Source of the DNA: Fluviirhizobium alvei
GTDB lineage: Bacteria > Pseudomonadota > Alphaproteobacteria > Rhizobiales > Rhizobiaceae
Assembly (NCBI RefSeq): GCF_030551875.1
Contig: NZ_JAUOZU010000020.1
Location: 1-64,000 of the forward strand
Direction of reading: 5' to 3'
DNA length: 64,000 nt
The translations under genes and the position numbers were made by a program. Shown piece by piece: positions 1,952 to 29,642 of this stretch (within the stretch, counting starts at the first letter, position 1; the number at the start of each line of letters is the position of its first letter). The notes under the pieces are model-generated. The model had not been told where the DNA came from, did not search any database, and saw nothing but the letters and a program-made list of their open reading frames with translations.

Positions 1952-1997
1952 TTGGTCAATAGGTTGACTAACTCATATCTGATAAGAGTTACTTATC
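1952..1997. promoter_or_regulatory. Two inverted repeats upstream of vapBC
   Basis: In the AT-rich leader upstream of the antitoxin there is TTGGTCAA-TAGG-TTGACTAA (1952-1971, one mismatch) and a perfect GATAAG-AGTTA-CTTATC (1981-1997). Both are placed where an autoregulatory antitoxin-toxin complex would bind. Operator function is inferred. Confidence 0.45.
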
Positions 1998-2079
1998 GAT
2001 GGTTATAATACAAACCCGCGTTCATGTGGTGTAAGGATCTCTAGTTCTGATATAGCATTCTTTTAGGAATTCATATATC

Positions 2080-3150: not shown

Positions 3151-3260
3151 CGGGCCAAGCTGGAGGCGGACTATCGCCAGCACATCCGGAGCCGTTCGCT
3201 CAGTCCGAAATAGGATATCGTCACGTTGGGCGCTAACCGCGCAAATTGCAGACGTGCGCT

Positions 3261-4272
3261 CTAGGTGTTTGATCCCGGACTTTAATGGTGCATTGTTTTC
3301 CCTCGATTGGAAGGAAGCTCTATGGGCCAAGTTCTACAGGGTCGCGCGACAACGACAGAGGCAATCCGTCGAGCAATACAAAATAGTCAAGAGAGCCTGA
3401 GAGCGCTCTCAAAGCGGTATGGGATCAACTCGAAGACTGTAGCCAAGTGGAAGAAGCGCACATCGATTGCCGATTTGGCGACCGGGCCGAAGGAACCGCA
3501 TTCGACAGTCTTGAGCCCGGAGGAGGAGGCCGTGATTGTCGCCTTCCGCAGGCGCACGCTGCTACCGCTCGATGATTGTCTCTACGCTCTTCAGCCAACA
3601 ATCCCGCATCTGACGCGCTCGTCCTTACATCGATGCCTACAGCGCCATGACATTTCACGACTGCCGGATGTCGAGGGCGACAAGGAGCCAAAAAAGAAGC
3701 TCAAGAGTTACCCCATTGGCTGCTTTCACATCGATATCGCTGAAGTCCAGACCGCTGTGGACAAGCTCTATCTGTTTGTGGCCATTGATAGAACGTCCAA
3801 GTTTGCCTTCGTCGAGCTTTACGCCAAAGCCGGAAAGATGAATGCAGCCCAATTCCTGCGCAATCTGGTCAAGGCTGTGCCCTATGCCATCCATACGATT
3901 CTCACGGACAACGGCATTCAGTTCAACAAGCGGGCCTGCGATCTCTACGCCTTCCATCACATCTGCGACCGGGTCTGTGACGAGATGGGAATTGAGCATC
4001 GGCTGACCAAGGTAAAGCATCCATGGACCAATGGGCAGGTCGAGCGAATGAACCGAACCATCAAGGATGCGACCGTCAAGTGCTTCCACTACGACGATCA
4101 CGAACAGCTCCAAAAGCATCTCGCCGACTTCATCGATGCCTATAACTTCGGGCGAAGGTTAAAGACACTCAAAAGCCTCACGCCCTACGAGTTCATCTGT
4201 AAACGATGGACTTTGGAGCCGGATCGTTTCATCATTTATCCGATCCATCAAATGCCGGGACTAAACACCCAG
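3261..4272 (+). mobile_element. IS481-family insertion sequence with terminal inverted repeats
   Basis: The transposase gene is bounded by imperfect inverted repeats. The left end (3261-3288) begins CTAGGTGTTTGATCCCGG, and the reverse complement of the right end (about 4245-4272) begins CTGGGTGTTTAGTCCCGG; similarity continues another ten bases inward with few mismatches. I see no clear target-site duplication, so the exact ends are uncertain by a few bases. Confidence 0.75.
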
Positions 4273-4305
4273 ATGAAACAGACTGGTTTCTCGACAGGCC
4301 AATGA
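3322..4305 (+). CDS. IS481-family DDE transposase
   Basis: A 327-residue transposase. An N-terminal helix-turn-helix (ESLRALSKRYGINSKTVAKW, about residues 24-43) precedes an rve integrase core. The acidic triad can be placed at D138 (FHIDIAEV), D196 (LTDNGIQF) and E241 (GQVERMNR). The ATG at 3322 is preceded by AAGGAAG; an in-frame TTG five codons earlier is less likely. The reading frame crosses the right inverted repeat: the usual end of this subfamily (MPGLNT) is followed by eleven extra residues encoded by flanking DNA, so the original stop is not used here. Probably still functional. Confidence 0.88.
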   Translation: MGQVLQGRATTTEAIRRAIQNSQESLRALSKRYGINSKTVAKWKKRTSIADLATGPKEPHSTVLSPEEEAVIVAFRRRTLLPLDDCLYALQPTIPHLTRSSLHRCLQRHDISRLPDVEGDKEPKKKLKSYPIGCFHIDIAEVQTAVDKLYLFVAIDRTSKFAFVELYAKAGKMNAAQFLRNLVKAVPYAIHTILTDNGIQFNKRACDLYAFHHICDRVCDEMGIEHRLTKVKHPWTNGQVERMNRTIKDATVKCFHYDDHEQLQKHLADFIDAYNFGRRLKTLKSLTPYEFICKRWTLEPDRFIIYPIHQMPGLNTQMKQTGFSTGQ

Positions 4306-4658: not shown

Positions 4659-5855
4659 TCATGCTCCACCAAGAATGGTGATGGAGCAGACATTCTGGGC
4701 CGGCCCGCCGCCGAGATTATGGGTCAATGCCTGTTTCGGATCTTTAAGCTGGCGATTTCCGGCCTGGCCGGTCAGTTGCAGCCAGGCTTCATAGAGCATG
4801 CGCAGGCCCGATGCGCCGACCGGATGGCCAAAACATTTCAGACCGCCATCGATCTGGCAGGGCAGGCTTCCATCCGCATCATAGAGACCGTCGAGCATGT
4901 CCTTCCAGGCACGCCCCTCGGCGCTGAGGCCGAGATCCTCAAGTGTCACCAGTTCGGTGATCGAGAAACAATCATGCAGTTCCGCCATGCCGATGCTGGC
5001 GCGCGGATCGGCGATGCCTGCCTCCTGATAGGCGCGCGCGGCGGCGATGCGGGCCGTGTGGACATAGGTTCCATCCCATTGCGCCTGCTGCGCTTCCCAG
5101 CCGTTCGAGGTCACGACCTGGATTGCCTTGATCAGCACCGGCGCAGTCTTGCCGAGGCTGCGGGCGATGTCCGGCGTCGTGACGATGGCGCAGGCGGCGC
5201 CATCGGAAACCGGGCAGCAGTCGAACAGGCCGAGCGGTTCGGCAACCAGGGGCGCATTCATCGCCTGTTCGATGGTGATCGCCTTGCGCAGGTGTGCATT
5301 CGGATTGCTGATCGCATTGGCATGGCTTTTCATCGATGTATGTGCCATGGCGCGCTTCAGATCATCGCGCGAAATGCCATGCTTTGTCGCATAGGCGCGC
5401 GCGAGCTGGGAAAAATTGCCGGGATTGGTGTGGGTCGGCAGATACATTGGCGCAAAGGTGCCGCGGGATGCGGTGGGCAGACCGGCAAAGCCGGTATCCT
5501 TGAGCTTCTCCACCCCGACCGCGAGCGCGATATCGACCGCGCCCGAAGCGACAGCGTAGACGGCGCCGCGAAAGGCCTCGGTGCCGCCGGCGCAGAAATT
5601 CTCGACGCGCGTGACGCCGACATTGGGCAGACGCAGGGCTTGCGCCATCGGCGTCCCGGCCTTGCCGGCGCCGATATCGTCATAGTGGGAGGAATACCAG
5701 GCCGCGCCGATCATCGAAGGGTCGATGCCGGCCCGATCGAGCGCCTCGAGATAGGCCTCGCACATCAATTCATCCTGGGAGACATCCCACCGTTCGCCGA
5801 AGCGTGAACACCCCATCGAGAGAATGGTGACCCGATCCTTGATTCCGCTAGCCAT
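4659..5855 (-). CDS. SCPx-like thiolase (CoA-ester carbon-carbon cleavage)
   Basis: A 398-residue thiolase-fold enzyme. The nucleophile is C88 in VENFCAGGTEAF. The second motif is HDCF (294-297), as in sterol-carrier-protein-x thiolases, instead of the NEAF of biosynthetic thiolases, and CFGHPVGASG (341-350) gives the catalytic histidine. It lies three bases downstream of the HMG-CoA-synthase-like gene in the same transcript, so the two probably form a complex. In ibuprofen degradation an SCPx thiolase (IpfD) with a DUF35 partner cleaves a ring-dihydroxylated aryl-propionyl-CoA. The Rieske dioxygenase, CoA ligase and racemase in this cluster make that role the leading guess; steroid or beta-oxidation thiolysis are alternatives. 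Confidence 0.82.
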   Translation of the reverse strand: MASGIKDRVTILSMGCSRFGERWDVSQDELMCEAYLEALDRAGIDPSMIGAAWYSSHYDDIGAGKAGTPMAQALRLPNVGVTRVENFCAGGTEAFRGAVYAVASGAVDIALAVGVEKLKDTGFAGLPTASRGTFAPMYLPTHTNPGNFSQLARAYATKHGISRDDLKRAMAHTSMKSHANAISNPNAHLRKAITIEQAMNAPLVAEPLGLFDCCPVSDGAACAIVTTPDIARSLGKTAPVLIKAIQVVTSNGWEAQQAQWDGTYVHTARIAAARAYQEAGIADPRASIGMAELHDCFSITELVTLEDLGLSAEGRAWKDMLDGLYDADGSLPCQIDGGLKCFGHPVGASGLRMLYEAWLQLTGQAGNRQLKDPKQALTHNLGGGPAQNVCSITILGGA

Positions 5856-5858
5856 GGT

Positions 5859-7313
5859 CTATTCCCCTCCGGTTCGGCTCGATTGCGTGTCGGCGGCGAT
5901 CGCCTTCCAGAAATAGCGGCGGAAGCCGGTTCGTTCGTCGATATCCTTTATGCGGAAGACAAAGCGAACCGCGTCGCCAGCCTTCAGCTGGTCGGCACCC
6001 GGATCGGTGAAATCCATCATCAGGCGGCCGTCGCCATTGAAGTCGACAAGCCCGTAACAGTTGGGCGGATGGCGCGAAAAGGCGAGGAGATCGGCAGTGG
6101 ATGTGGCGATGGTGCCGCCCCGATCGGCCAGCGGATAGGGCTCCAGCGCATCGACATCGAGGCCTTCGCGCGTTGCGGCTATGCGCGACGGCGGGAACTG
6201 GATGGTGCCAGTCTGGCGGTTGCGCCCGCCGACGAAGCCGAGCAGCTCCTCCGACCGCCGATAGGCCGTCGTCAGGGCTTCATTGACCTGCACCCTGCCG
6301 CGGAGACCGCGATCCCATTCGAGCATGCCGCGAAAGATTGCCAGCTTGAGGTAATTCCGTTCGGGCAGGCCGCTTTTTATCTGGCGTGAGACCTGCGGCA
6401 CCATGGTGGCGATTGCCGGCCCGGCCTCGAAGATGAGTGCTGTCGCCCCCTGGCCGAATTCGGCGACCAGAACCTTTTCTCCCGGTTTCATTCCCTCCAT
6501 GGCTCCGGCGAGCATGAGAAGCGCATGGGCCGATCCGGTATCGCCGCAATCCGCGGCAAGATCGGAGGCGAGGCGGGCGTGACCGAGCCCGGATGCCTGA
6601 CCCACAGCCTTGGCACAGCCGGCGATGGTGCTCGGCAGCACGAAATGGTCGATCTCCGTCGGGGAGAGGTTCGCGGCCTTGAGCGCCGCAGAAATGGCCT
6701 CGGGCACGATCTTCAGATAGCCCTCTTCCCGGATCCATCTCTCTTCCCATTCGAGGGCGAAATCGCGTCCGGTCGCGCGGTATCTATCGGCGAAAGGCCG
6801 GGTGATGGAACTGCCGCCAAGAAAGCACAGCAGGCCGTCGCCCGATGGCTCGACAAGAACCGCAGCCGCGCCATCGCCCGATTTGCTTTCCGAACTGCTG
6901 CCTGCCGGATGTTTCGGGATCTCTGCCGCGACAACAAGGCTCGTCTGGCCCTGTTCGAGCGCCTGATGAAGGGCGATTAGGCCGGCGCGGCGCGTGCTTG
7001 TCGTATCCTCGGTGAGGCAGTTTCTACCCAGCCGCAAGGCGCCATGCACGAGAACGGCGTTCTGAAATTCGGCAAAGGGCGCGGTCATCGAGGCGAAAAC
7101 CAGCCGCCGAACGGTATCGGGCATCTGGTCCGCCAGACAGTTGCGGGCCGCCTCGACCGCCATGGTGACGCTGTCCTCGTCCCAGAAGGCGAGGCTGCGT
7201 GATCCTTTTCCAGTGCCTGCAGACGAAGTCAGCCATCCCATGGCCTGGGCGATTGCGGCCCGCTCGAGCCGCATCTTCGGCAGATAGGTTCCGATCGACG
7301 AAATAGCGACCAC
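5859..7313 (-). CDS. HMG-CoA-synthase-like protein fused to an OB-fold (DUF35-type) domain
   Basis: A 484-residue fusion. Residues about 1-330 follow the HMG-CoA synthase/FabH-like thiolase fold (ISSIGTYLP at the start, GDTGSAHALL as the GNTxSA-like motif). Residues about 370-475 look like the OB-fold part of DUF35 proteins (NCYGLVDFNGDGRLMMDF, VRFVFRIKDID). The position of the catalytic cysteine appears to be R108 (DTTSTRRAG where relatives have a C before K-A-G), and the FHxP histidine region reads HFVLPST, so condensing activity is doubtful. In archaea a thiolase, an HMG-CoA synthase and a DUF35 scaffold form one complex; here two of those parts are fused and sit next to the thiolase. A structural or CoA-substrate docking partner is the likely role. 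Confidence 0.75.
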   Translation of the reverse strand: MVAISSIGTYLPKMRLERAAIAQAMGWLTSSAGTGKGSRSLAFWDEDSVTMAVEAARNCLADQMPDTVRRLVFASMTAPFAEFQNAVLVHGALRLGRNCLTEDTTSTRRAGLIALHQALEQGQTSLVVAAEIPKHPAGSSSESKSGDGAAAVLVEPSGDGLLCFLGGSSITRPFADRYRATGRDFALEWEERWIREEGYLKIVPEAISAALKAANLSPTEIDHFVLPSTIAGCAKAVGQASGLGHARLASDLAADCGDTGSAHALLMLAGAMEGMKPGEKVLVAEFGQGATALIFEAGPAIATMVPQVSRQIKSGLPERNYLKLAIFRGMLEWDRGLRGRVQVNEALTTAYRRSEELLGFVGGRNRQTGTIQFPPSRIAATREGLDVDALEPYPLADRGGTIATSTADLLAFSRHPPNCYGLVDFNGDGRLMMDFTDPGADQLKAGDAVRFVFRIKDIDERTGFRRYFWKAIAADTQSSRTGGE

Positions 7314-7399
7314 GATTTCCCCCCGTTTCCGCGCCTGCCGGGTGGATCACTCCATCCGTTCCTCCGGCGCGCCAGCAGTTGCATCTTGTCAAGTCTCGA

Positions 7400-7425
7400 T
7401 ATAATAGTCAGAACGGTCGGTCAAC
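7400..7425 (+). promoter_or_regulatory. Promoter -10 and TetR-type operator (site A)
   Basis: A perfect TATAAT (7400-7405) is followed four bases later by AGAACGGTCGGTCAAC (7410-7425), one of four copies of the same operator in this cluster. It lies between the divergent thiolase operon and the ferredoxin reductase gene, so binding could control both. Confidence 0.65.
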
Positions 7426-7447
7426 TAATAACTTATCGGGGAGCGGA

Positions 7448-8659
7448 ATGGGTCGGGAACGGGTTGTGATAATCGGGGCAGGGCAGGCCGGTGAATCGGT
7501 CGCCATGGGCTTGCGGGCCGGAGGTTATGGTGGCGACATCCTGCTGGTTGGCGAGGAACCCTATCTGCCCTACCAGCGCCCGCCGCTGTCGAAGAAATAC
7601 CTCTCCGGCGAATGGGACCGTGAACGGTTGCTGTTGCGGCCCGACGACTTCTGGCGCCGGATGGAGATCGAGGTCGTGACCGGAAAGGCTGTGACGGCTG
7701 TCGATGCCGAACGCCGTACGGTCGCGATCGATGGAAGTACGGTCGGCTGGAGCAAGCTTGCCTTTGCAACGGGAACCGAGCCGCGCCCGATGCCGGACGG
7801 GTTTGCCAGGCTGCGAGCCGTGTACCGTCTGCGAACGATCGATGATGTCGATCGGCTCCGCCCCGATTTTCAGCCAGGCAAGCGGCTTCTCGTCATCGGT
7901 GGCGGCTATATCGGCCTCGAGACTGCTGCGGTCGCAGCCATGGCGGGTCTCGATGTCACCGTTATCGAACGGGCGTCGCGCATTCTCGAGCGGGTTGCCT
8001 GCTCACGCACGTCGGATCATTTCCGTGCACTTCATCAGTCGAAAGGTGTCAGACTCATTGAAAACGGTGCAATTGCCTCCGTTTCGAGCCAGGACGGACA
8101 GCTGACCGGACTGACGCTTGCGGATGGCGAGTCGCTGGCAGCCGATCTTGCCGTGGTCGGGGTCGGTGTGTTGCCGCGCATCGATCTCGCTGAACGCGCC
8201 GGCCTCCACTGTGACAATGGCATCGTCGTCGATCTCCATGGCCGCGCGTCGAAAGAGGGGATCTGGGCTGCCGGCGATTGTGCGAACTTTCCGTTCGGGG
8301 GCCTGCAGACACGGCTCGAAAGCGTTCAGAATGCCGTCGATCTGGCCGAGATCGTTGCGGATGACATGCTGGGCAAGACCCGGGATTACAAGCCGGTTCC
8401 CTGGTTCTGGTCCGACCAGTATGACACCAAGCTGCAGATCGTCGGTCTCAATCGCAGCTATGATTCAGTGGTGGCGAAGCGGGCCGAGCGGACCTTTGCG
8501 CACTGGTATCTCCGCGATGGCGTGGCGGTTGCCGTCGATACGATCAACGACGGGCGCACCTATATGGCGGCCCGGAAACTGTTCGAGAAAGGCGTCAAAA
8601 TCACCGCGGAGGATCTGGCGCGGCCGGATTTCGACCCGGTCACGCTGCTGCGCGGATGA
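7448..8659 (+). CDS. FAD-dependent ferredoxin-NAD(P)H reductase of the Rieske oxygenase system
   Basis: A 403-residue flavoprotein of the ferredoxin/rubredoxin reductase type (BphA4, CamA, ThcD relatives). It has the FAD-binding GAGQAG near the N-terminus, PYQRPPLSKKYL (the FAD-contacting loop), a second Rossmann motif GGGYIGLETA for NAD(P)H, and GIWAAGDCA for the flavin. The ATG at 7448 follows GGGGAG at good spacing. It would pass electrons from NAD(P)H to the [2Fe-2S] ferredoxin at 13017-13331 and on to the Rieske dioxygenase. It stands alone behind operator site A. Confidence 0.9.
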   Translation: MGRERVVIIGAGQAGESVAMGLRAGGYGGDILLVGEEPYLPYQRPPLSKKYLSGEWDRERLLLRPDDFWRRMEIEVVTGKAVTAVDAERRTVAIDGSTVGWSKLAFATGTEPRPMPDGFARLRAVYRLRTIDDVDRLRPDFQPGKRLLVIGGGYIGLETAAVAAMAGLDVTVIERASRILERVACSRTSDHFRALHQSKGVRLIENGAIASVSSQDGQLTGLTLADGESLAADLAVVGVGVLPRIDLAERAGLHCDNGIVVDLHGRASKEGIWAAGDCANFPFGGLQTRLESVQNAVDLAEIVADDMLGKTRDYKPVPWFWSDQYDTKLQIVGLNRSYDSVVAKRAERTFAHWYLRDGVAVAVDTINDGRTYMAARKLFEKGVKITAEDLARPDFDPVTLLRG

Positions 8660-8684
8660 AGCCGGCTTCCCGCCAGCCGTTCCG

Positions 8685-9368
8685 TCAGGGCTTGCGGCCA
8701 ACGAGGGCGTAGCCCTTGGTAAAAAGCTCGACCGTTCGGTCTGCCAGTTGCTCCGGAGAGACCGCGCCATTGGCTCTGTACCAGGTGTAGGTCCAGTTGA
8801 TCATGCCGAAGAACAGCATTGTGTCGACATGGGCCATGCTCATGTCGTCCGCCATATCGGGCCGAAGCTGGAGCAGGATGTCGCGCACATAGGCAATCAG
8901 CTCGCGTTGCTTGGCGATCAGTTCCTTCTGGTTTTCCGGTGCCAGGAAATCGAGGCAGGTCAGGAGGACGACATGCTGGTCGCGCGAGACGGCGTAGACT
9001 TCGAGGAAAAAGCGCGTCAACTGCTGGAAACGCTCGACCGGATCCTGGAATCCGTAGAGTGAATGGCGGCAGCTCCACAGCAACTTGTCGACATGCGTGT
9101 TGAGCATATCGAGCAGGATTGCCTCCTTGGAATCGAAGTAGTGATAAAGCCGCGATTTCGAGCAGTCGCAGGCCTCGGCAATGTCGCCGATCGAGGTCGC
9201 GGCATAGCCGCGCTTGGCGAACATACTGGCCGCCTTCTCGATGATGTCATCGCGGACCTTGTCGTAATCGGGTGAACGGGTTCTCGCCAAGGTCGTCTCG
9301 CCTGCATAATTGATTTGAACGGCCGGACTATAATCACGTTGGGGCGATTTTGTAAATTGTGGCAGCAT
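8685..9368 (-). CDS. TetR/AcrR-family regulator, probable repressor of the aryl-CoA cluster
   Basis: A 227-residue TetR protein. The helix-turn-helix lies at about residues 40-85 (ASMFAKRGYAATSIGDIAEA, SKSRLYHYFDSKEAI). The C-terminal half is a ligand-binding domain with a tryptophan-rich stretch (INWTYTWYR). An alternative TTG start at 9290 would give LARTRSPDYD as N-terminus, closer to many relatives. It lies inside the cluster, and operator site B is just upstream of its own start, so autorepression with control of all four sites is inferred. The effector is probably a CoA thioester, by analogy with PaaR-type TetR regulators. Confidence 0.88.
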   Translation of the reverse strand: MLPQFTKSPQRDYSPAVQINYAGETTLARTRSPDYDKVRDDIIEKAASMFAKRGYAATSIGDIAEACDCSKSRLYHYFDSKEAILLDMLNTHVDKLLWSCRHSLYGFQDPVERFQQLTRFFLEVYAVSRDQHVVLLTCLDFLAPENQKELIAKQRELIAYVRDILLQLRPDMADDMSMAHVDTMLFFGMINWTYTWYRANGAVSPEQLADRTVELFTKGYALVGRKP

Positions 9369-9426
9369 TTGCGGTGGCGAACGGCCGGTATGAACTGCGG
9401 TTTGTTAAAATTTCAGTTTACATAAC

Positions 9427-9442
9427 CCAATCGTTCGTTCTA
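9427..9442. promoter_or_regulatory. TetR-type operator (site B)
   Basis: The minus strand reads TAGAACGAACGATTGG, matching the AGAACGRWCGRTY core of the other three sites. It lies between the tetR gene and the CoA-ligase gene, which diverge. On the minus strand it is preceded by ATTAAT, giving the same -10/operator geometry as the other sites toward tetR. Confidence 0.6.
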
Positions 9443-9519
9443 TTAATTGCGCATGGGTTGGAGGTGGTCTGCGTGGGATGCCGGGCGGATCGTGACTATA
9501 GACAGGGAGGTCTCAGGAC

Positions 9520-10842
9520 ATGCAGCACCCGGAAATCGAGACACTGGATCGCGACGGGATCCTGAAGGTTCAGCAGGAAGGTCTGGCGGCCATGGGCGCG
9601 CGCCTGGCCTCGAGCCAGCTGTGGCGGGATCATTTCGCTCAGGCCGGTATGAAGCCGGAGGATCTGGCGGCTCCGGATGCGCTTGCGAATGTTCCCTTCA
9701 TGGAGAAGGAAAATCTCCGCGCCCATTATCCGTTTCCCTATCTGACGGTGGAGCCCGAGCAGGTCGAGCGGTTTGTCGCCACGTCCGGAACCACGGGGTT
9801 GCCGATGATGTTCGGCATGACGAAGAACGATCTGCAGTCGCTTCTGCCATCGCAGATGGCACGTGCCCTGACCGCCGCCGGTGTCAAGAAAGGGTATCGG
9901 GCCTATCAGGGCTATGGTTATGGCCTCTGGATCGGTGGTCCGGCGCTCGATGCCGGCTTTGCGGCACTCGGCTGCACCAATTTTCCGATCGGTCCGGGCC
10001 GCGGCGAACTCGCCGCGCGCTGGCTGCGCGACCACCAGTATGATGTCGCCTCGATGTCGCCGCTCTGGCTGATGACGCTCGTGCAATCCGCCAAGCAGCA
10101 AGGCATCAACCCGAAAACCGACTGGAGCCTGAAAGTGGCGATCCTTGGCGGTCAGTCGGTTTCAGCCGAATTCCGTGCCCAGCTCGAGGGCGAACTGCCG
10201 GAGGGTTTCATCAGCCACAACATCTACGGAACCACCGAAGCCGGCGGCCCGATTCTGGCGATCTCGACCCCCTATACCCATGCGGATGATGAACTGCAGC
10301 TCATCAACGAAGATACGGTCATTGTCGAAATTCTCGATCCCAACACCATGAAGCCGGTGTCGGAAGGCGAGGTCGGGGAAATCGTCGTCACCACCATCCG
10401 CAAGGAAGCGTCACCCGTCGTGCGCTGGCGGACACGCGATCTCGTGCGCCTGTCCAGCCAACCCTATGACTGTCCCTCGGGCCGTCGCGGCATGCGCAAG
10501 ATCGGCCGGATCATCGGCCGCAGCGACGACATGATCAAGTTCAAGGGCGTCATCGTCTTCCCCTCGCAGATCGAAGATATCATCGCGGGCACCAAGGGCG
10601 CGGTGCGCGAAGCCTGGCAGATCTATATCGACAAGGAACTGACGACTATCGGTACGCTGACGGTGGCCGTGGAAGCAACCCATGCCGACCAGCGTCCCGC
10701 CGAGCAGATCGTCAGCGACATTCGTCGCGAAACCAAGGCGCGGCTCGGCATGAACATCAATGTCGAATGCCATCCCGAAGGGACGCTGCCGCGCTACGAA
10801 GCCAAGGCAACCCGCGTGCTGCACCGCGCCGAAGCCCGCTAA
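9520..10842 (+). CDS. Aryl/phenylacetate-CoA ligase, AMP-forming (PaaK-like)
   Basis: A 440-residue adenylating enzyme of the PaaK group, the normal length. Motifs in order: P-loop ATSGTTGLP (about 88-96), YGTTEAGG, WRTRD and GRSDDMIKFKG (hinge), and a C-terminal PRYEAKATRV with the adenylation lysine. It activates an aromatic acid with ATP to the CoA thioester, probably the entry step of this cluster. A GGAGG lies about nine bases before the ATG. Phenylacetate, an arylpropionate or a substituted benzoate are all possible; the racemase and SCPx thiolase nearby favour a 2-aryl-alkanoate. IpfF, the ibuprofen-CoA ligase, belongs to the same broad group. Confidence 0.88.
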   Translation: MQHPEIETLDRDGILKVQQEGLAAMGARLASSQLWRDHFAQAGMKPEDLAAPDALANVPFMEKENLRAHYPFPYLTVEPEQVERFVATSGTTGLPMMFGMTKNDLQSLLPSQMARALTAAGVKKGYRAYQGYGYGLWIGGPALDAGFAALGCTNFPIGPGRGELAARWLRDHQYDVASMSPLWLMTLVQSAKQQGINPKTDWSLKVAILGGQSVSAEFRAQLEGELPEGFISHNIYGTTEAGGPILAISTPYTHADDELQLINEDTVIVEILDPNTMKPVSEGEVGEIVVTTIRKEASPVVRWRTRDLVRLSSQPYDCPSGRRGMRKIGRIIGRSDDMIKFKGVIVFPSQIEDIIAGTKGAVREAWQIYIDKELTTIGTLTVAVEATHADQRPAEQIVSDIRRETKARLGMNINVECHPEGTLPRYEAKATRVLHRAEAR

Positions 10843-10920
10843 GGGGTTTAGGCTTTGATCTCCCAAGCAGCGCTGGATGGGGCTTTTGCCCTGTCCGGCG
10901 CTTGAACGACGAGGCATGAC

Positions 10921-11796
10921 ATGACTGTCCATCCCGATCCCTTTCTCTTGGTCGCCGACAGGATCCGTTCGATCACATCGTCCTGGGCGAACGGCATGAC
11001 GCTTGCTGAGATCAGGACCAGTTTCGATGGATTTCTCGGCGGTGATTTCGCGGCGGACCAGCTTGAGATTTTCGATCTCGAAGGCCTGCCGGCCAGCTGG
11101 ATCGGGAACGGCGCCGAGCGAACGATATTCTATCTGCATGGCGGTGGTTTCCAGATCGGTTCGCTGCGCTCTCATGCCGATCTGATGACCCGTATCGCCA
11201 GTGCCGCGGATGCCCGCGTTCTCGGTATCGACTACAGGCTCGCACCGGAACATCGGTTCCCCGCCGCCCATGACGATGCCTTTAGCGCCTATCGCTGGCT
11301 CATCGCATCCGGGATCGTGCCCGATGCCATCATGGGCGATTCCGCCGGCGGGGCGCTTGCGCTTGCCACGGCAGTCAGGGCACGCGATGCCGGCCTGCCA
11401 TTGCCGCGCGCGATCATGCTCCTGTCACCCTGGCTCGATCTTTCGCTGAGCGGCGACAGCTACGCGTCACTTGCCGAGGCGGATATCTTTTCCAAGCCGG
11501 CGCAGCTGCGCGCCATGGCGAAGACCTATATCGGCCGCAACGGCGATCCGTCCGATCCTTTGGTCTCCCCGCTTTTTGCGGCGCTCGACGGGCTGCCACC
11601 GATGCTCGTTCATGCTGGAGCCTGCGATATCACGCTTGATGATGCGCGCCTGTTGGAAAAGCGGGTCAACGATGCCGGTGGGGCGATCACACTCCGGATC
11701 TTCGATCGCATGTGCCACCATTTTCAGGTCTTTGCGGAACTGCCGGAAACCGCGCAGTCGCTCTCGGAAATCGGCGCCTTTTTCGACAGGCTTTGA
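10921..11796 (+). CDS. Alpha/beta hydrolase, HSL-type carboxylesterase
   Basis: A 291-residue alpha/beta hydrolase of the hormone-sensitive-lipase group. The oxyanion-hole motif is YLHGGGFQIGS, the nucleophile lies in GDSAGG, the acid is probably in CDITLDDA, and the histidine is in MCHHFQVF. It follows the CoA ligase by 78 bases on the same strand and probably shares its transcript. It may release the aromatic acid from an ester before CoA activation, or act on a lactone. No signal peptide is seen, so it is cytoplasmic. Confidence 0.85.
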   Translation: MTVHPDPFLLVADRIRSITSSWANGMTLAEIRTSFDGFLGGDFAADQLEIFDLEGLPASWIGNGAERTIFYLHGGGFQIGSLRSHADLMTRIASAADARVLGIDYRLAPEHRFPAAHDDAFSAYRWLIASGIVPDAIMGDSAGGALALATAVRARDAGLPLPRAIMLLSPWLDLSLSGDSYASLAEADIFSKPAQLRAMAKTYIGRNGDPSDPLVSPLFAALDGLPPMLVHAGACDITLDDARLLEKRVNDAGGAITLRIFDRMCHHFQVFAELPETAQSLSEIGAFFDRL

Positions 11797-11826
11797 ACTG
11801 TAGCGGATGAGGATGGATCAGGCGCC

Positions 11827-12969
11827 TCAGATGGCGCCGGATTGTTCTGCCGCCGCAATGCGGTCGTTGTCGATACCCCAATCAGACAGAATCTCTTTAG
11901 AATGGCTGCCGGGCTCGACGGCGACTTCGGGGGCGGCTGCCGGCGTGCGGCTGAAGCGGGGGGCCGGGGCCGGCTGGCGGACGCCTGCCACCTCGATGAA
12001 GGCGGCGCGGGCCGTTGCCAGTTCATCCGCCTGCGCCTCCTCCCAGGAGAGGACAGGACTGGCACAGGCATCGCTGCCGGCAAAAATCCGGGTCCAGTAA
12101 TCGCGCGGATGGGTGCGAAAGACCGCCGCCATGCGCTGACGCAGATCCGGCCAGGCGGACGGGTTGCGGACATGGGTGAATTCGGCCGGATCGAGCCCCA
12201 GCTTTTCGATCAGGATGGTATGGAATTTGGGCTCGACCGCTGCCACCGCAAAAGCCTTGCCGTCCGCACAAAGATAGGTCGTGTAGAAATAGGCGCCGCC
12301 ATCGAGCAGATTGGCTTCGCGCTCATCCGACCACATGCCGCCGGCGCGAAAGCCCCAGAACATTCCGGCCAGCAACGAGGCGCCATCCACCATTGCCGCG
12401 TCGATCACCTGCCCGAGGCCGGTCGATTTCGCCTGCAGGATCGCCGAAACCATGCCGAAGGCCATCAGCATGCCGCCGCCGCCGAAATCCCCGATGAGAT
12501 TGAGCGGCACCGGGGGCGGCTGGTCGGCCGGACCCATGGCGGCGAGGGCACCGGTCATGGCGATGTAATTGAGATCGTGGCCTGCCGTATAGGCCAGCGG
12601 CCCGTCCTGTCCCCAGCCGGTCATGCGGCCATAGGCGAGGCGACTGTTGCGGGTAAGGCAGATGTCGGGGCCTAGTCCGAGCCGCTCCATAACGCCAGGC
12701 CGGAACCCTTCGATGATCCCATCGGCTTGATCGATCAGCTCAAGGGCTAGATCGACGGCACCGGGCACCTTGAGGTCGAGTGCGATCGACCGTCGGCCAC
12801 GTGCGAGCACGTCGAAGCGGGTGTTCATCAGCGGAATGTCGGGCCGCTGGCCTTTTGCATGGATACGGATCACCTCGGCGCCCTGATCGGCCAGCATCAT
12901 CGCGGCAAACGGGGCAGGGCCGAGGCCAACCATTTCGATGATCTTCAATCCTTGCAAGGGACCAGACAT
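11827..12969 (-). CDS. Alpha-methylacyl-CoA racemase-like family III CoA-transferase
   Basis: A 380-residue CaiB/BaiF-fold protein. The racemase signature is visible: H131 in [12 protein letters not shown] and D161 in [12 protein letters not shown], 30 residues apart as in mycobacterial MCR (H126/D156). True formyl- or succinyl-CoA transferases use an aspartate nucleophile in a different context, so racemisation at the alpha carbon of a 2-methylacyl-CoA is favoured. It is the last gene of the minus-strand Rieske operon. A racemase fits a chiral 2-arylpropionate, where only one enantiomer would be ring-hydroxylated. Confidence 0.78.
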
Positions 12970-13016
12970 ATCCTATTCCTCATTGTTCGTGCGATAGGCC
13001 GGGATCGTGCATTGGC

Positions 13017-13331
13017 TCAGCCCGCGGGCAGATAGACGGTGAGACCGTCGAGCTGGTCGGTCACCTTGATCTGGCAGGACAGCCGCGAAGTGTCGCGGAC
13101 GGCATCGGCGAATTCCAGCATGTCGCGTTCCATCGCATTGGCGATACCCACACGCGCCGCCCATTCGTCATCGACATAGACATGGCAGGTCGCACAAGCA
13201 CAGGCGCCGCCGCATTCGGCAATGATACCGGGAATGTTGGCGCGGCGCGCGCATTCCATGAGATTCAGTCCGTCGGTTGCCTCGATCTGGTGGCTCTCGC
13301 CATTGGCGGCCACGAACGTAATTTTTGGCAT
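13017..13331 (-). CDS. [2Fe-2S] ferredoxin, adrenodoxin/putidaredoxin type
   Basis: A 104-residue ferredoxin with cluster ligands C40, C46, C49 and C86 (ECGGACACATC, then LSCQI), the spacing of vertebrate-type ferredoxins. The ATG at 13331 follows GGGGAG, and the longer upstream frame is rejected. It sits in the Rieske operon and is the natural carrier between the reductase at 7448-8659 and the dioxygenase. Many Rieske systems use a Rieske-type ferredoxin; a plant/vertebrate-type partner occurs in dioxin dioxygenase-like and several sphingomonad systems. Confidence 0.92.
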   Translation of the reverse strand: MPKITFVAANGESHQIEATDGLNLMECARRANIPGIIAECGGACACATCHVYVDDEWAARVGIANAMERDMLEFADAVRDTSRLSCQIKVTDQLDGLTVYLPAG

Positions 13332-13386
13332 GTCTGTCTCCCCAGCTTTTGTTTGGATGGTCTCCCGTCTTGGCGGGAGCGGATGA

Positions 13387-14130
13387 TCAGGCGCCGCAGC
13401 CCATGCCGCCCGAAACGCCGAGGCATTCGCCCGTGACGAAGGATGAATCCTCCGACGCGAAGAAGGCGACGGCGGCCGCAATCTCGGATGGCTGGCCAAG
13501 ACGTTTCATCAAGGTCAGCGCAGCCATGTCGGCGTGAAGTTTGTCGCCGACCTCGGCGATGGCGCGCTCGACCATCGGCGTCAGAACCGGGCCGGGGGCG
13601 ATTGTATTGGCCGTGATGCCGTAGCGTGCGTTCTCACGCGCAATCGAGCGCGTGAAGCCGATGAGGCCCGCTTTCGCGGCGGCATAGACCGAGCCACCTT
13701 TCGAGCCCAGCCGCCCGGCCTCGGAGGCAATATTGACGATGCGGCCATAACGATTGGCCTGCATGGCAGGCAGCGCGGCATGGGTGAAGGCAAAGGCGCT
13801 TTCAAGATTGATCGTCAGCAGCGAGCGCCAGTCCTCAGGTCCGGTCTCGGTGAAGAAGGCATGCTGGTCGACGCCGATATTGTTGACCAGCACGTCGACC
13901 GGCCCGAGCGAGCCACCGAGTGCCGCAATCGCTGCGAGGTCGGTGGCATCGACGGGCCGGAAGTTCGCGCCGGTTGCGGATGCCAGGGCATCGCCGCCGG
14001 CGATGTCGCGATCGCAGAAGGTCACGGCCATGCCGTCCGCCAGAAGGCGAAGGACGATGGCGGCGCCGATGCCATTGGCGCCACCCGTGACCAGTGCATG
14101 TCGTGTCCGGCGCTCTTCGGCCATGATCAT
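13387..14130 (-). CDS. Short-chain dehydrogenase/reductase
   Basis: A 247-residue classical SDR. It has TGGANGIG for the cofactor, NNIG, a catalytic serine in VNIASEAGR and YAAAK. An acidic residue at the end of the second strand (FCDRD) suggests NAD. It overlaps the enoyl-CoA hydratase upstream by four bases (ATGA), so the two are translationally coupled. It could oxidise a cis-dihydrodiol-CoA or a 3-hydroxyacyl-CoA; 2-hydroxycyclohexanecarboxyl-CoA dehydrogenase (BadH) is a similar family member. The substrate is not determined. Confidence 0.85.
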   Translation of the reverse strand: MIMAEERRTRHALVTGGANGIGAAIVLRLLADGMAVTFCDRDIAGGDALASATGANFRPVDATDLAAIAALGGSLGPVDVLVNNIGVDQHAFFTETGPEDWRSLLTINLESAFAFTHAALPAMQANRYGRIVNIASEAGRLGSKGGSVYAAAKAGLIGFTRSIARENARYGITANTIAPGPVLTPMVERAIAEVGDKLHADMAALTLMKRLGQPSEIAAAVAFFASEDSSFVTGECLGVSGGMGCGA

Positions 14131-14954
14131 GCGCCCTTGAACACCGGCTTGCGCTTTTCGATGACAGCGGCGAGCCCTTCGCGGGAGTCGGCCGTCGCCG
14201 ACAAGGTCGAGACGGTGCGGGCCTCCTCCGGCAGGCAGGATTCGACATTCAAGCCATTCCAGAGCAGCCGTTTGGTGGCCGCCAGAGCCAGAGGCGCGCC
14301 TTCGGCATAGGTTCGTGTCGCCTTGCGGGCTTCTTCGGCGAGCGCGTCATCGGGCACGCAGCGGGTAATCAGCCCGATCGACTGCGCTTCCCCTGCTTCA
14401 ACGATGCGGTTGGTGAGGAACATTTCCGTCGCACGGCGGAAGCCGATCAGACTTGGCAGGATTACCGAGGCGCCACCGTCCGGGGCCATGCCGACGCGGG
14501 TGGCGCCGGCCAGGAACTTCGCACCGGAACCGGCAATCACCACATCGGAGGCGCAGACTAGGCCAAGGCCACCGCCGCCGGCGGCATAACCCTGGACCTC
14601 AGTGACGACGATCGCTTCAAGCCGGATCAAAGCACCGATGGCGATCTGCAGATAGGCGGTGACTTCCCGCAGAAAATCGCCCAGTTCCTCGCCTTTCGAT
14701 GCGAATTCGCGCACATCGCCGCCGGCGCAGAAATTCCTGCCGGCACCGCGCAGATGCACGACCCGCACCCCCGGTTCGCGATGGCAGCGCATCACGGCCC
14801 GATAGAGAGCCTGCATCAGCTCGATATTCATGCCGTTGGCCGCCTCCGGGCGGTTGAGCGTGATGCGGGCGACATGATCGGCATAATCAACCAGGACCGG
14901 CCCTTCGCCGATCCAGACCTGCCGATCGGTGTCGGCCATTGTGTTTTCAGACAT
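14127..14954 (-). CDS. Enoyl-CoA hydratase/isomerase-family protein lacking both catalytic glutamates
   Basis: A 275-residue crotonase-fold protein. The oxyanion-hole regions FCAGGDVREF and GYAAGGGGLGL are present. The positions that carry the two catalytic glutamates in hydratases are occupied by Gly/Leu (about 130-131) and by Ala/Thr (GATRVGMAPDGG, about 150-152), so simple hydration is doubtful. An isomerase, a ring-modifying activity or a C-C hydrolase of the crotonase superfamily are possible. It lies between the Rieske beta subunit (8 bases upstream) and the SDR. Confidence 0.8.
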   Translation of the reverse strand: MSENTMADTDRQVWIGEGPVLVDYADHVARITLNRPEAANGMNIELMQALYRAVMRCHREPGVRVVHLRGAGRNFCAGGDVREFASKGEELGDFLREVTAYLQIAIGALIRLEAIVVTEVQGYAAGGGGLGLVCASDVVIAGSGAKFLAGATRVGMAPDGGASVILPSLIGFRRATEMFLTNRIVEAGEAQSIGLITRCVPDDALAEEARKATRTYAEGAPLALAATKRLLWNGLNVESCLPEEARTVSTLSATADSREGLAAVIEKRKPVFKGA

Positions 14955-14962
14955 TGCGTGCC

Positions 14963-15496
14963 TCAGACCAGGAAGGAGAGCGTGAAGATTGGCTTGTGGT
15001 TGTTCACCAGGCCAACCTTCTTGTAGGCGAGGCGGAATGCACCGTCGAAATAGCGCAACTTGTATTCGTTGCGCGTGGCCCAGACGGTCTCTGCACGCAG
15101 ATTGTCCTCGAAGATCATGGTGTTGGCATGCACCTTCACCTCATTGTCGACGACGCTGACAATCTCGACATTGGAGACGATGCGGGCCAGTTCCGACCGT
15201 GGCGTCTGGGTGTGACGGCGACCGGTCTTGAGCTGCTTGATACGCACGCCGATGCGGGAGCGGTTGTCATAGAGGATCGACATCTGGCGTTCGGGATCGA
15301 TATCGTGACCGTTGGCCGGCACCCAGTAGATCGCATCCTCCGTCCAGAGCGCTTCCCATTCGTCATAGGCGTGGCTGTCCTGCAGACGGGCTTCCATATA
15401 GAGAAACTGCGTCACTGCATGCTGAAGTTCGAGCGGCGAGAGTGCGCCGAGGCTTTCGGCAGATGCCGGTGATTCTTCCTTGATTGCAACACTCAT
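14963..15496 (-). CDS. Aromatic-ring-hydroxylating dioxygenase, beta (small) subunit
   Basis: A 177-residue NTF2-fold beta subunit that stabilises the Rieske alpha subunit. Typical features are LQHAVTQFLYMEARLQDSHAYDEW near the N-terminus, LWTEDAIYWVPANG, and a C-terminal YFDGAFRLAYKKVGLVNNH. I prefer the ATG at 15496, spaced from GGAG, over an overlapping GTG at 15505. It starts five bases after the alpha-subunit stop. Equivalent to IpfB if the ibuprofen-like reading is right. Confidence 0.9.
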   Translation of the reverse strand: MSVAIKEESPASAESLGALSPLELQHAVTQFLYMEARLQDSHAYDEWEALWTEDAIYWVPANGHDIDPERQMSILYDNRSRIGVRIKQLKTGRRHTQTPRSELARIVSNVEIVSVVDNEVKVHANTMIFEDNLRAETVWATRNEYKLRYFDGAFRLAYKKVGLVNNHKPIFTLSFLV

Positions 15497-15501
15497 TGGT
15501 A

Positions 15502-16758
15502 TCACTCCGACATCAGTTTGAGATAGTGGCGCCAGATGCCGCGCTGCGGCGTCTCGTCGGTCGAATGGGCGATGCGGTAGCCGTTTTCATCCAGGCGCTC
15601 GCGATGCTCGCCTCGGCTCAGAAGCAGCCATTCCGGATCGCGGATGGCGGCGCCACGATGGTTGCGCTCATACATTTCAGTATCGTCGGCAAGCAGGAAG
15701 CCGGCTGGCCCCACCGAGCCCATGGTCTGCTGGCGCAGGCGCCGGTTCATGTCGGGCGCATCCTTGAACTGGATCGCGGTTACATGCTGGATGGTTTCGT
15801 CCACGGCTGTCGGCTGCAGCACGAACATCTGGATTTCGGCGATGAACAGGTTGGGGAAGATCATGATATGTGGGGAACCGTCGATCATGATCTGGCGGGC
15901 ACGTTCGTCGCCATAGGCCTCATTCATGGCTTTCACATAACCCGGCAGACGCGCTTCGTTGGTGCCGAACCATTCGAGCGGCTTGTCGATCCGGCGCCAT
16001 TCGGGACGCAGATCGAACTCGGTATGGCCGTTGCCATAATCGCGGGTCAGCGCGGTCGAATCCGGGCCATAGAGATTGGCAATGCCGCTGTCGGTAACCT
16101 GGAAGATCGAGCCATGCACGAAACCCGGATGATAGCCGTCGGTTTCGTTCTCCAGCATGAATTTCCAGTTGGCCTTGGTGCGATGCTGCAGGAAGCCGGC
16201 CGTCAGTTCGAGTTCGCCGGTCGGCGAATTGTCGAGCAGCTGGTCGAGCGATGCCTTGGCGCCGCCGAGATGCTCCTCGAGGCTCGGGCCTTCATGGGCA
16301 AAGGAGCCGAAGATGAAGCCGCGATAGATCGCGACGCGCGGCACCTTGCCGAGGCCCAGCCCCTTCTTCTCCGTGCCGACATAGCCATCCGGCAGGGCAA
16401 AGCCCATGAGATCGCCGGTATTGGAGAAGGTCCAGGCGTGATAGGGACAGGTGAAGCTCGTGCGGTTGCCGCCCTGATAGGCGCAAAGCTGGTTGCCACG
16501 ATGCGGACATTTGTTGAGCAGCAGCCGGATTTCACCATCCTTGTCGCGCACCATCAGGATCGGCGTCGGGCCGATCGATTTGACGACATAGTCGTTCTTG
16601 TTCGGGATCTCGCTCGTATGCCCGACATAGACCCAGGTGCGGTACCAGATCTTCTCCAGCTCCTCCTGAAAGATCGCCTCGTCATAATAGACGCGGCTAT
16701 GGACCCGGTTGGGCTCGATCAACGCATTGTAATCGATGCTCTCTTCTGTGGACGACAA
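15502..16758 (-). CDS. Aromatic-ring-hydroxylating dioxygenase, alpha (Rieske) subunit
   Basis: A 418-residue alpha subunit. Rieske cluster ligands are C84 and H86 (CPHRG) and C104 and H107 (CPYHAW). The mononuclear iron site is ENETDGYHPGFVHG with bridging D207 and ligands H210 and H215. It adds both atoms of O2 to an aromatic ring with electrons from the ferredoxin pair. It is the first gene of the minus-strand operon alpha-beta-crotonase-SDR-ferredoxin-racemase, controlled from promoter/operator site C. With a CoA ligase and an SCPx thiolase in the regulon, the substrate may be a CoA ester, as for IpfA; p-cumate- or benzoate-type free acids remain alternatives. Confidence 0.93.
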   Translation of the reverse strand: MSSTEESIDYNALIEPNRVHSRVYYDEAIFQEELEKIWYRTWVYVGHTSEIPNKNDYVVKSIGPTPILMVRDKDGEIRLLLNKCPHRGNQLCAYQGGNRTSFTCPYHAWTFSNTGDLMGFALPDGYVGTEKKGLGLGKVPRVAIYRGFIFGSFAHEGPSLEEHLGGAKASLDQLLDNSPTGELELTAGFLQHRTKANWKFMLENETDGYHPGFVHGSIFQVTDSGIANLYGPDSTALTRDYGNGHTEFDLRPEWRRIDKPLEWFGTNEARLPGYVKAMNEAYGDERARQIMIDGSPHIMIFPNLFIAEIQMFVLQPTAVDETIQHVTAIQFKDAPDMNRRLRQQTMGSVGPAGFLLADDTEMYERNHRGAAIRDPEWLLLSRGEHRERLDENGYRIAHSTDETPQRGIWRHYLKLMSE

Positions 16759-16791: not shown

Positions 16792-16837
16792 CTCGACCGA
16801 TCGTTCTATTTATTGAGGTGGATTTGGCGGATGTCAA
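16792..16837 (-). promoter_or_regulatory. Promoter and TetR-type operator of the Rieske operon (site C)
   Basis: Reading the minus strand: TTGACA (16837-16832), a 17-base spacer, AATAAA (16814-16809), then one base and the operator AGAACGATCGGTCGAG (16807-16792). The operator touches the -10 element, so a bound repressor would block RNA polymerase. Confidence 0.75.
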
Positions 16838-16991: not shown

Positions 16992-17036
16992 TTGTAGATT
17001 CGCAAGAAAAAGCATTATATAGAACGATCGATCTGT
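16992..17036 (+). promoter_or_regulatory. Promoter and TetR-type operator of the Liv/Paa-like operon (site D)
   Basis: TTGTAG (16992-16997), a 17-base spacer, TTATAT (17015-17020), then the operator AGAACGATCGATCTGT (17021-17036). Same geometry as site C on the other strand; the two promoters diverge across about 150 bases in which I see nothing else. Confidence 0.75.
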
Positions 17037-17131: not shown

Positions 17132-18265
17132 ATGAAAACAGGAATGACTTGCCTTGCCGCGCTTATGGCAATGACCGGTGCCGCTGCTGCCGATATCAAG
17201 ATCGGCGCCACGCTTTCAGAAACAGGCCCGGCCGGCGCTCTGGGAGATCCGCAGGCGAAAACCCTCAAGCTGCTGATCGAGGAGATCAATGCCGCCGGCG
17301 GCATCAATGGCGAGAAGATATCGCTCGTGGTCTATGACGATGGCGGTGACCCCAACAAGGCCCGCACCTTCGCCACCCGGCTCGTCGAGGAAGACGAAGT
17401 CAACGCCATCATCGGCGGCACGACGTCCGGCACCTCGATGGCGATCATTCCGGTGGTCGAGGAAGCGGAGATCCCCTTCATTTCGCTTGCCGGCGCCATC
17501 GAGATCATCGATCCGGTCAAGCATTGGGTGTTCAAGACGCCGCATACCGACCGTATGGCCTGCGCCAAGATTTTCGAAGACATGAAGAAGCGCGGCATCA
17601 CCAAGATCGGCATGATCTCGTCAACCGACGGTTTCGGCTCCTCGATGCGCAAGCAATGTCTCGGCATCGTCAATGAGTATGGTATCGAGGTTCTGGCGGA
17701 CGAGAATTACGGCCCGCAGGATGCTGACATGACGCCGCAGCTGACCAACATTCGCGGCAAGGACAGCGTCCAGGCCATTCTCAATCCGGGTTTCGGCCAG
17801 GGTGCCGCGGTCGTCACGCGCAATGTCGTCCAGCTCGGCATCAAGATCCCGCTCTATGAATCGCATGGTGTCGCATCGCAGGGCTATATCGATCTTGCCG
17901 GCCCGGAGGCGAGCGAAGGTGTGCGCCTTCCCGGAACGGCGCTTCTGGTTGGTGACCTGCTAAGCGATTCCGATCCGCAGAAGCCGGTCGTTGCCGCCTA
18001 CAAGGCGCTGTTTGAAGGCGCGACCGGCGCTCCGGTCGGCACTTTTGGTGGCTATGCCCATGATGCCGTGCGCATTCTTGCCGATGCCATCAAACGGGCA
18101 GGCTCGGCTGAGCCGAAGGCGATCCGCGATGCGATTGAAACCACCAAGGGGCTGGTCGGGACCACCGGCACGGTGACGATGTCGCCGCAGGACCATCTCG
18201 GTTTCGACCTCTCGGCCTTCAAGATGCTCGAGATCCGCAAGGGCCACTGGACCATCGTCGAGTGA
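17132..18265 (+). CDS. Branched-chain-amino-acid-type ABC transporter substrate-binding protein
   Basis: A 377-residue periplasmic binding protein of the LivJ/type I fold. It has a clear signal peptide (about MKTGMTCLAALMAMTGAAA) and a mature start DIKIGATLSETGPAG. First gene of a plus-strand operon: binding protein, two permeases, two ATPases, then beta-oxidation genes. HAAT importers beside aromatic clusters in alphaproteobacteria often carry aromatic acids rather than amino acids, so the ligand is probably the substrate of this pathway. Confidence 0.9.
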   Translation: MKTGMTCLAALMAMTGAAAADIKIGATLSETGPAGALGDPQAKTLKLLIEEINAAGGINGEKISLVVYDDGGDPNKARTFATRLVEEDEVNAIIGGTTSGTSMAIIPVVEEAEIPFISLAGAIEIIDPVKHWVFKTPHTDRMACAKIFEDMKKRGITKIGMISSTDGFGSSMRKQCLGIVNEYGIEVLADENYGPQDADMTPQLTNIRGKDSVQAILNPGFGQGAAVVTRNVVQLGIKIPLYESHGVASQGYIDLAGPEASEGVRLPGTALLVGDLLSDSDPQKPVVAAYKALFEGATGAPVGTFGGYAHDAVRILADAIKRAGSAEPKAIRDAIETTKGLVGTTGTVTMSPQDHLGFDLSAFKMLEIRKGHWTIVE

Positions 18266-18273
18266 ACCGGCTT

Positions 18274-18293
18274 GGCCGGGCTTGAGCCCGGCC
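18274..18293 (+). terminator. Hairpin after the binding-protein gene
   Basis: GGCCGGGC-TTGA-GCCCGGCC is a perfect 8-bp stem with a 4-base loop nine bases after the stop codon. There is no T-run, so it more likely protects the 3' end of the binding-protein mRNA than terminates fully. Confidence 0.6.
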
Positions 18294-18324
18294 TTCCCAT
18301 CACGAAGCAGGAGCTCGGAACCTG

Positions 18325-20938: not shown

Positions 20939-21626
<688 letters not shown>

Positions 21627-29639: not shown

Positions 29640-29642
29640 TCC

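Follow-up and report, generated by a model that had tools for sequence, protein, structure and literature searches.

The usual account of aerobic aromatic catabolism runs through free catechols and ring-cleaving dioxygenases or through epoxidation of coenzyme A (CoA) esters, as in the paa and box pathways. The ipf and iad systems are precedents for Rieske enzymes in CoA pathways. The Rieske gene cluster described here lies at positions 4659-16758 of a 64-kb stretch of Fluviirhizobium alvei DNA (contig NZ_JAUOZU010000020.1, positions 1 to 64,000, hereafter the window), which belongs to a 5.2-Mb genome of 46 contigs with a completeness of 99.75%. With ipfABDEF(HI) of Rhizorhabdus wittichii MPO218 pIBU218 (L009) it shares a Rieske alpha-beta pair of a neighbouring clade, a CoA ligase and a thiolase-fold protein with an OB partner. 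The iad genes of Variovorax CL014 have in common with it a Rieske alpha-beta pair, a CoA ligase, a thiolase-fold protein and ABC uptake, and the paa phenylacetyl-CoA catabolon a ligase, an isomerase, a hydratase/dehydrogenase, a thiolase and PaaI, as well as TetR control, as in Thermus. We put at about 55% the probability that this catabolic cluster has spread horizontally and serves the breakdown of a ring-bearing acid that is handled as its CoA thioester and cleaved by a true thiolase. It looks like a sister pathway to ipf rather than another ibuprofen pathway.

The evidence for a true thiolase comes from the catalytic residues, which were aligned in 38 proteins. In the portion of PMC12329534 available, a Cys pair is described as catalytic in SCP2 thiolases, whereas the steroid aldolases Ltp2 and Sal have lost the nucleophile and use the Tyr of a YDHF/YDCY motif as base. 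The nucleophilic Cys, the HDCF motif and the His of a GHP motif that mark an SCP2-type thiolase were found in 24 of 24 aligned thiolases of the window clade, that of the window included, and the same motifs in the Xanthobacter oligotrophicus enzyme (L032) bring the count to 25 of 25 examined. IpfD and six relatives, all seven of the ipf-type proteins (L009:9912-11099, L010, L011, L065, L069, L133 and L134), have Gly, YD[A/P]F and Tyr at these positions. Seven iad-like thiolase-fold proteins have Gly, YDDY and Gln; a match was present at 7 of 10 iad-like loci (L097, L101, L102, L105, L106, L109 and L111). Since the window thiolase keeps the Cys, HDCF and GHP residues, it should cleave a beta-ketoacyl-CoA in a CoA-dependent reaction where ipf releases catechol. 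Published work names IpfD a thiolase (PMC9195938 and PMC11347016, each as far as its text was available); the residues of IpfD suggest that it cleaves a beta-hydroxyacyl-CoA and is mechanistically an aldolase. That role would fit ibuprofen chemistry, in which ipso attack would leave a tertiary alcohol at the beta carbon. The iad-like proteins with YDDY likewise look like retro-aldolases.

The preliminary description of this DNA had proposed the same chemistry as ipf. This is contradicted at the carbon-carbon cleavage step, where the window has the residue set that IpfD lost. Nor is it supported by the ferredoxin, which is Fer2-type where IpfI is Rieske-type, or by the other 36 loci of the clade, which have no match to three extradiol queries (below). 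Furthermore, the OB domain of the window is fused to an HMG-CoA-synthase-like (HMGS-like) domain, the ligase is PaaK-like where that of ipf is FadD-like, and the window adds a PaaG-like crotonase, a short-chain dehydrogenase (SDR), a hydrolase and a racemase. A query with IpfD over the source genome returned no IpfD-like protein, this thiolase being the sole match, and the OB_ChsH2_C profile returned the fused domain alone, with no separate OB protein of the IpfE kind. Other parts of the preliminary description held. The Rieske alpha and beta subunits, ferredoxin, reductase, PaaK-like ligase, racemase, SDR, thiolase and OB partner that it listed are all at 4659-16758, each as an open reading frame with a profile match, and the picture of a Rieske cluster that is related to ipf and combines CoA enzymes with a racemase and an unusual HMGS-like/OB partner is supported. 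Two genes of the cluster, the crotonase and the hydrolase, were absent from its list. Among the literature matches listed, no title or abstract start described this cluster, subscription journals being mostly outside the coverage. The genes of the cluster are as follows.

4659-5855, minus strand: SCP2-type thiolase of the PRK06157 family (NF004810, 661 bits, cut-off 403), catalytic set intact
5859-7313, minus strand: fusion of an HMG-CoA-synthase/KAS III-like domain with a C-terminal OB domain (DUF35/ChsH2_C), from profile matches and alignment
7448-8659, plus strand: FAD ferredoxin reductase, HcaD-like (Pyr_redox_2 and Reductase_C)
8685-9368, minus strand: TetR family regulator (TetR_C_24), from profile matches
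9520-10842, plus strand: PaaK-like aryl-CoA ligase, divergent from PaaK (TIGR02155, 279 bits, under the cut-off of 646)
10921-11796, plus strand: HSL-type alpha/beta hydrolase (Abhydrolase_3), from profile matches
11827-12969, minus strand: 2-methylacyl-CoA racemase-like protein of the CaiB/BaiF family
13017-13331, minus strand: [2Fe-2S] ferredoxin, Fer2 type, 104 amino acids (PF00111); the reading frame is listed as 13017-13499, and the ATG at 13331 is the most likely start
13387-14130, minus strand: SDR, from a profile match
14127-14954, minus strand: PaaG-like crotonase with an isomerase-type active site, from residues and nearest solved structures
14963-15505, minus strand: Rieske oxygenase beta subunit (PF00866)
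15502-16758, minus strand: Rieske oxygenase alpha subunit, adjoining the IpfA clade (PF00355, PF00848 and trees)

The alpha subunit places the cluster beside ipf. Residues C84, H86, C104, H107, D207, H210 and H215, which we take to be the Rieske and non-haem iron ligands, were invariant in 18 sequences; together with the profile matches of the beta subunit, ferredoxin and reductase they identify a three-component Rieske ring-hydroxylating oxygenase. Of the alphas from characterised systems that were compared, IpfA is the nearest, at 42% identity, and the best match with a solved structure is IadD (194.6 bits). A scan of species genomes with the alpha sequence was limited to the best 80 loci; neither tree includes L008 or L060. 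In the tree of 94 sequences the window alpha falls within a clade of 35 (support 100/98). Together with the ipf side it forms a group of 46 rows with a support of 97/92, which becomes 100/99 when 11 long rows are taken out. The ipf side consists of seven ipf-type rows and three Binatota rows, with a modest support of its own (87/39, or 92/60 without the long rows), and the window alpha lies in the neighbouring clade, outside that of IpfA. The three Binatota alphas (L062, L063 and L064) are 48-52% identical to IpfA, and no aldolase, OB or thiolase match was found in the stretches fetched around them. The preliminary description had suggested comparing the alpha subunit with IpfA and with free-acid dioxygenases; it groups with IpfA and not with BenA or AntA, the benzoate and anthranilate oxygenases standing apart from the window and ipf clades. 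The ten iad-like alphas also stand apart as a separate clade (100/100), whose iad label was deduced from genera and gene content. By its kinship to IpfA, the oxygenase would be expected to use a CoA ester.

The distribution of the cluster is patchy, since a close full-length alpha was found in only one (G022, 71%) of 60 relative genomes, and this patchiness argues for horizontal spread. The best plasmid matches to the alpha, 57-71% identical, come from Sulfitobacter, Variovorax, Pseudonocardia, Rhodococcus and M. avium. Because other proteobacteria and also actinobacteria have the same core, the cluster is more than a chance assembly.

The architecture of 37 window-clade loci and 10 ipf-side loci (7 ipf-type and 3 Binatota) was compared by tblastn with fixed score limits. 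The PaaG-like crotonase was present at 32 of the 37 loci, the HMGS-OB fusion at 25 and the thiolase at 24, and each was found at none of the 10 on the ipf side. Conversely, the IpfD-type aldolase (best window-clade score 89 bits, limit 250) and the separate OB protein were at 7 of the 10 ipf-side loci and at none of the 37; none of these five genes was found near the three Binatota loci. Extradiol dioxygenases, sought with three query types, were found at 2 of 7 ipf-type loci and at 1 of 37 window-clade loci. This single locus is the window itself, with its unit at 28.6 kb; the other 36 had no match to the three queries, intradiol enzymes not being queried and several loci being short. The racemase (4/37) and the PaaK-like ligase (2/37) are local, and the alpha/beta hydrolase is at 15/37 loci, the named ones all proteobacterial. 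The nearest relative is L032 of X. oligotrophicus (86%), where the ligase is 82%, the racemase 71%, the HMGS-OB 58% and the thiolase 83% identical; the L032 piece ends at HMGS-OB, and its thiolase, the 25th, is just beyond the end. An amine-oxidase/CrtI-like FAD oxidoreductase was observed near the Rieske cluster at 23 of 37 clade loci (e.g. L053:18585-19898) and was not found near the cluster in the window.

The partner of the thiolase resembles the archaeal thiolase/HMGS/DUF35 complex and the PhlABC acyltransferase, which have the same trio of thiolase, KAS III-like and OB components. PhlA and the HMGS of the archaeal complex are the closest matches to the HMGS-like part, and OB_ChsH2_C scored 26.2 bits in the window search (Pfam cut-off 27.1) and 30.4 bits in the genome search. 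In contrast to those systems, the OB domain is fused to the KAS III-like chain, the setting is catabolic with a Rieske enzyme, and the synthase Cys is substituted: the position of the archaeal catalytic Cys (6esq_I) is Arg in the window and is never Cys in 25 of 25 family members, in an alignment that is weak. The HMGS-like/OB scaffold seems to be catalytically dead. An AlphaFold model of HMGS-OB from 14 sequences had a mean pLDDT of 76 and a pTM of 0.82, with weak stretches at 174-193 and 332-359.

The active site of the crotonase is of the PaaG type. The Glu pair of hydratases is absent, the first position being Gly in 32 of 32 clade crotonases and the second Ala in 31 and Tyr in one, and the Asp of PaaG is kept in all 32. 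The nearest solved structures are 6sl9, 6slb, 3hrx and 6sla, which we take to be Thermus PaaG. Among the NCBIfam profiles EchA19 (170 bits) ranked above PaaG (156), both under the cut-off. The CaiB-family protein scored 377 bits to MCR and about 100 to formyl-CoA transferase, and its AGHD, DAAMVD and EPxF segments, presumably those with active-site roles in MCR, align with that enzyme, as in a 2-methylacyl-CoA racemase; on these sequence features it is assigned as a racemase rather than a CoA-transferase. The nearest solved kin of the ligase are the phenylacetate-CoA ligases 2y27, 2y4o and 4r1l. Its plasmid kin include three from Variovorax, 55-57% identical, and two of these three were examined (L137 and L138) and have MaoC, crotonase, OB, thiolase, 2Fe-2S reductase and branched-chain ABC genes. 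The cluster of L138, a Variovorax plasmid, includes PaaN, and that of L137 is alike without an annotated PaaN. L138 also encodes a 339-amino-acid protein without a Pfam match at 1e-5, possibly an undescribed oxygenase. Together, the racemase and the PaaK-like ligase make a 2-aryl-alkanoate, as the preliminary description supposed, a possible substrate.

That description had also placed the genes under shared operators. Four sites of the form AGAACGNNCGRTY were found in three divergent intergenic regions.

7410-7422, plus strand: operator-like site AGAACGGTCGGTC in the gap between HMGS-OB and the ferredoxin reductase, with a counterpart at L032:19541
9429-9441, minus strand: operator-like site in the gap between tetR and the ligase
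16795-16807, minus strand: operator-like site upstream of the Rieske alpha subunit
17021-17033, plus strand: operator-like site upstream of the ABC transporter operon

These four compare with a mean of 0.20 in 100 shuffles, none of which had at least four; this test is partly circular and flatters the pattern, which was derived from the same four sites. With two mismatches allowed, 15 sites were found in the window against 8.1 expected, and 1 of 100 shuffles was as high. AGAACGNNCGRTY was not enriched genome-wide, where it has 10 sites and its backward control 29. Independent but thin support comes from X. oligotrophicus, where one exact site is in the orthologous reductase/HMGS-OB gap (L032:19541); a looser scan of L032 was at chance, with 4 sites against 1.95 expected and 15 of 100 shuffles as high. 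L006, L062, L064 and L099 each have one copy of the exact pattern as well. The pattern resembles the PaaR elements, given as CNAACG and CGTTNG in the part of PMC6651687 available.

The following genes flank the cluster on the right.

17132-21626, plus strand: ABC transporter of the branched-chain-amino-acid type with a binding protein, two permeases and two ATPases (named by eye)
21628-23583, plus strand: enoyl-CoA hydratase/3-hydroxyacyl-CoA dehydrogenase (ECH/HCDH) fusion, FadJ/FadB-like, under the cut-off
23585-24370, plus strand: PaaG-family isomerase (TIGR02280, 399 bits, cut-off 345)
24367-24807, plus strand: PaaI-type thioesterase (TIGR02286, 134.8 bits, cut-off 118.9)

The transporter operon is divergent from the Rieske operon, and transporter genes are likewise divergent from the alpha gene in L032. 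By its position the ECH/HCDH fusion may belong to the same regulon. PaaG and PaaI, 3' of the transporter (23585-24807), are both above their cut-offs in a genome without a PaaA match.

From the gene content, the alpha clade and the catalytic residues we infer a substrate, an order of steps and a link between regulator and operators. The substrate would most likely be an aryl-acetic or 2-aryl/alkyl-propionic acid. It would be taken up by the ABC transporter and activated to the CoA ester by the PaaK-like ligase, and its 2-methyl centre would be racemised by the CaiB-family racemase. The ring of the acyl-CoA would then be oxygenated by the three-component Rieske enzyme (alpha-beta, Fer2 ferredoxin and FAD reductase). 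The PaaG-like crotonase would carry out double-bond or elimination chemistry, the alcohol would be oxidised by the SDR (and the ECH/HCDH fusion), and the resulting beta-ketoacyl-CoA would be cleaved thiolytically by the thiolase on its HMGS-like/OB scaffold. Control of the pathway is attributed to the TetR protein, which would act on the operator-like sites. A more specific version is possible but doubtful: the Rieske enzyme would work on the thioester, a beta-ketoacyl-CoA, cyclic or exocyclic, would be made from the cis-diol by the crotonase and SDR, and the true thiolase on the dead HMGS/OB would cleave this product with CoA.

Several observations weigh against the proposed pathway. Because the thiolase and aldolase sets were chosen by similarity, some uniformity inside each is to be expected, and the result is the difference between the sets; the HMGS-like Cys column rests on a weak alignment. 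HMGS-OB was not found at 12 of 37 loci nor the thiolase at 13, and some of the loci concerned are short contigs (L033, L042, L043 and L060); L004, L006, L044, L052 and L061 show no thiolase within about 10 kb or more on each side, and L044 and L048 lack the crotonase. The three Binatota loci are on the ipf side with neither aldolase nor thiolase near. HMGS-OB/thiolase pairs without an annotated Rieske gene near were found at L123, L124, L125, L127 and L128. The racemase and PaaK-like ligase may mark a local substrate range and not the core, and the substrate of the oxygenase could be a free acid or have a non-aromatic ring.

The pairs just mentioned bear on a quite improbable alternative, in which the thiolase/HMGS-OB genes adjoin the Rieske operon without sharing its function and serve ordinary beta-oxidation of branched or cyclic acyl-CoA. 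The five pairs are plasmid loci beside MaoC and/or SDR genes, in a plasmid gene table that is incomplete, and they suggest a general thiolase for bulky acyl-CoA; the 12-13 clade loci where the pair was not found are also in keeping with this alternative. However, the pair is linked to Rieske genes at 24-25 of 37 loci in proteobacteria and actinobacteria, and the operator-like sites are common to both gene groups in the window. At another plasmid locus, L126, the pair is beside two Rieske alpha genes. An identity with iad-type indole-3-acetate degradation is very improbable and was dropped. Among solved structures IadD matches the alpha best, and both systems have a CoA ligase, a thiolase-fold protein and an ABC transporter, but the iad-like alphas form their own clade in the tree and the thiolase-fold proteins at 7 of 10 iad-like loci carry the aldolase-like residues. 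Moreover, IadC is described in the accessible part of PMC12633357 as the reductase of a two-component system, where the window has a ferredoxin and a reductase.

Two other explanations are less improbable. In a paa-like hybrid, which we consider unlikely, the Rieske enzyme would replace the phenylacetyl-CoA epoxidase PaaABCDE and the CoA-bound ring would be opened without a ring-cleaving dioxygenase. The PaaG and PaaI above their cut-offs, the PaaK-like ligase, the ECH/HCDH fusion beside the cluster, the crotonase at 32 of 37 loci and the likeness of the operator to the PaaR elements all favour this. A profile search of the source genome gave no PaaA match and no PaaZ above the cut-off (PaaBCDE not searched), which is in line with a replacement and places the genome outside the paa pathway on these two profiles. 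In the C46 region of this genome, which has a second PaaG, no ring oxygenase was recognised by eye in L120. However, the cluster is without a PaaZ-like enzyme, and in a survey of 21 clade loci, two of them plasmid records without PaaA, PaaA was above the cut-off in 10 of the 19 other whole genomes with the cluster; an eleventh has a PaaA fragment under the cut-off at a contig end. The cluster is therefore not a plain substitute for the epoxidase. In X. oligotrophicus PaaA and PaaG are on another contig, and the idea that a paa cluster adjoins the Rieske cluster there was not borne out.

An ipf-type upper pathway, with ipso 1,2-dioxygenation of an arylacetyl- or 2-arylpropionyl-CoA release of catechol and acyl-CoA by the thiolase/OB pair and cleavage of the catechol by the extradiol unit at 28659-31985, is unlikely. 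The kinship of the alpha to IpfA in the neighbouring clade favours it, as do the relation of the racemase to MCR, which one PDB title names also as a 2-arylpropionyl enzyme, and the presence of an extradiol dioxygenase and MhpA-like hydroxylase 12 kb from the cluster. Against it are the full thiolase residue set, the source genome without an IpfD-like or separate OB protein, and the 36 other clade loci without a match to the three extradiol queries. Additionally, no exact operator site lies at the extradiol unit, which has an IclR-like gene of its own (by eye) after it.

The rest of the window holds other units. To the left of the cluster (92-4305) are a phage-type integrase, a PIN-domain protein and an rve transposase, which suggest a genomic island. 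A separate unit at 28659-32812 encodes a BphC-like extradiol dioxygenase, an MhpA-like hydroxylase (NF004829, above the cut-off), an FAH hydrolase and an IclR-like regulator named by eye. The region 49581-56764, with a QuiC-like dehydratase/HPPD fusion (737 bits, under the cut-off of 1200), a shikimate dehydrogenase and TRAP-like transporter reading frames (by eye), is probably for quinate/dehydroshikimate use. A TonB-dependent receptor and FhuB/FhuD-like siderophore uptake genes (by eye) are at 57811-63821.

In the proposed pathway, a clade neighbouring that of ipf, with members in proteobacteria and actinobacteria, pairs a Rieske enzyme with a different carbon-carbon cleavage chemistry. If the thioester route from cis-diol to thiolase holds, it would be an aerobic opening or stripping of an aromatic acyl-CoA without epoxidase, retro-aldolase or ring-cleaving dioxygenase. 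By the residue test, the Rieske/CoA clusters of any genome can be sorted into a thiolase type and an aldolase type.

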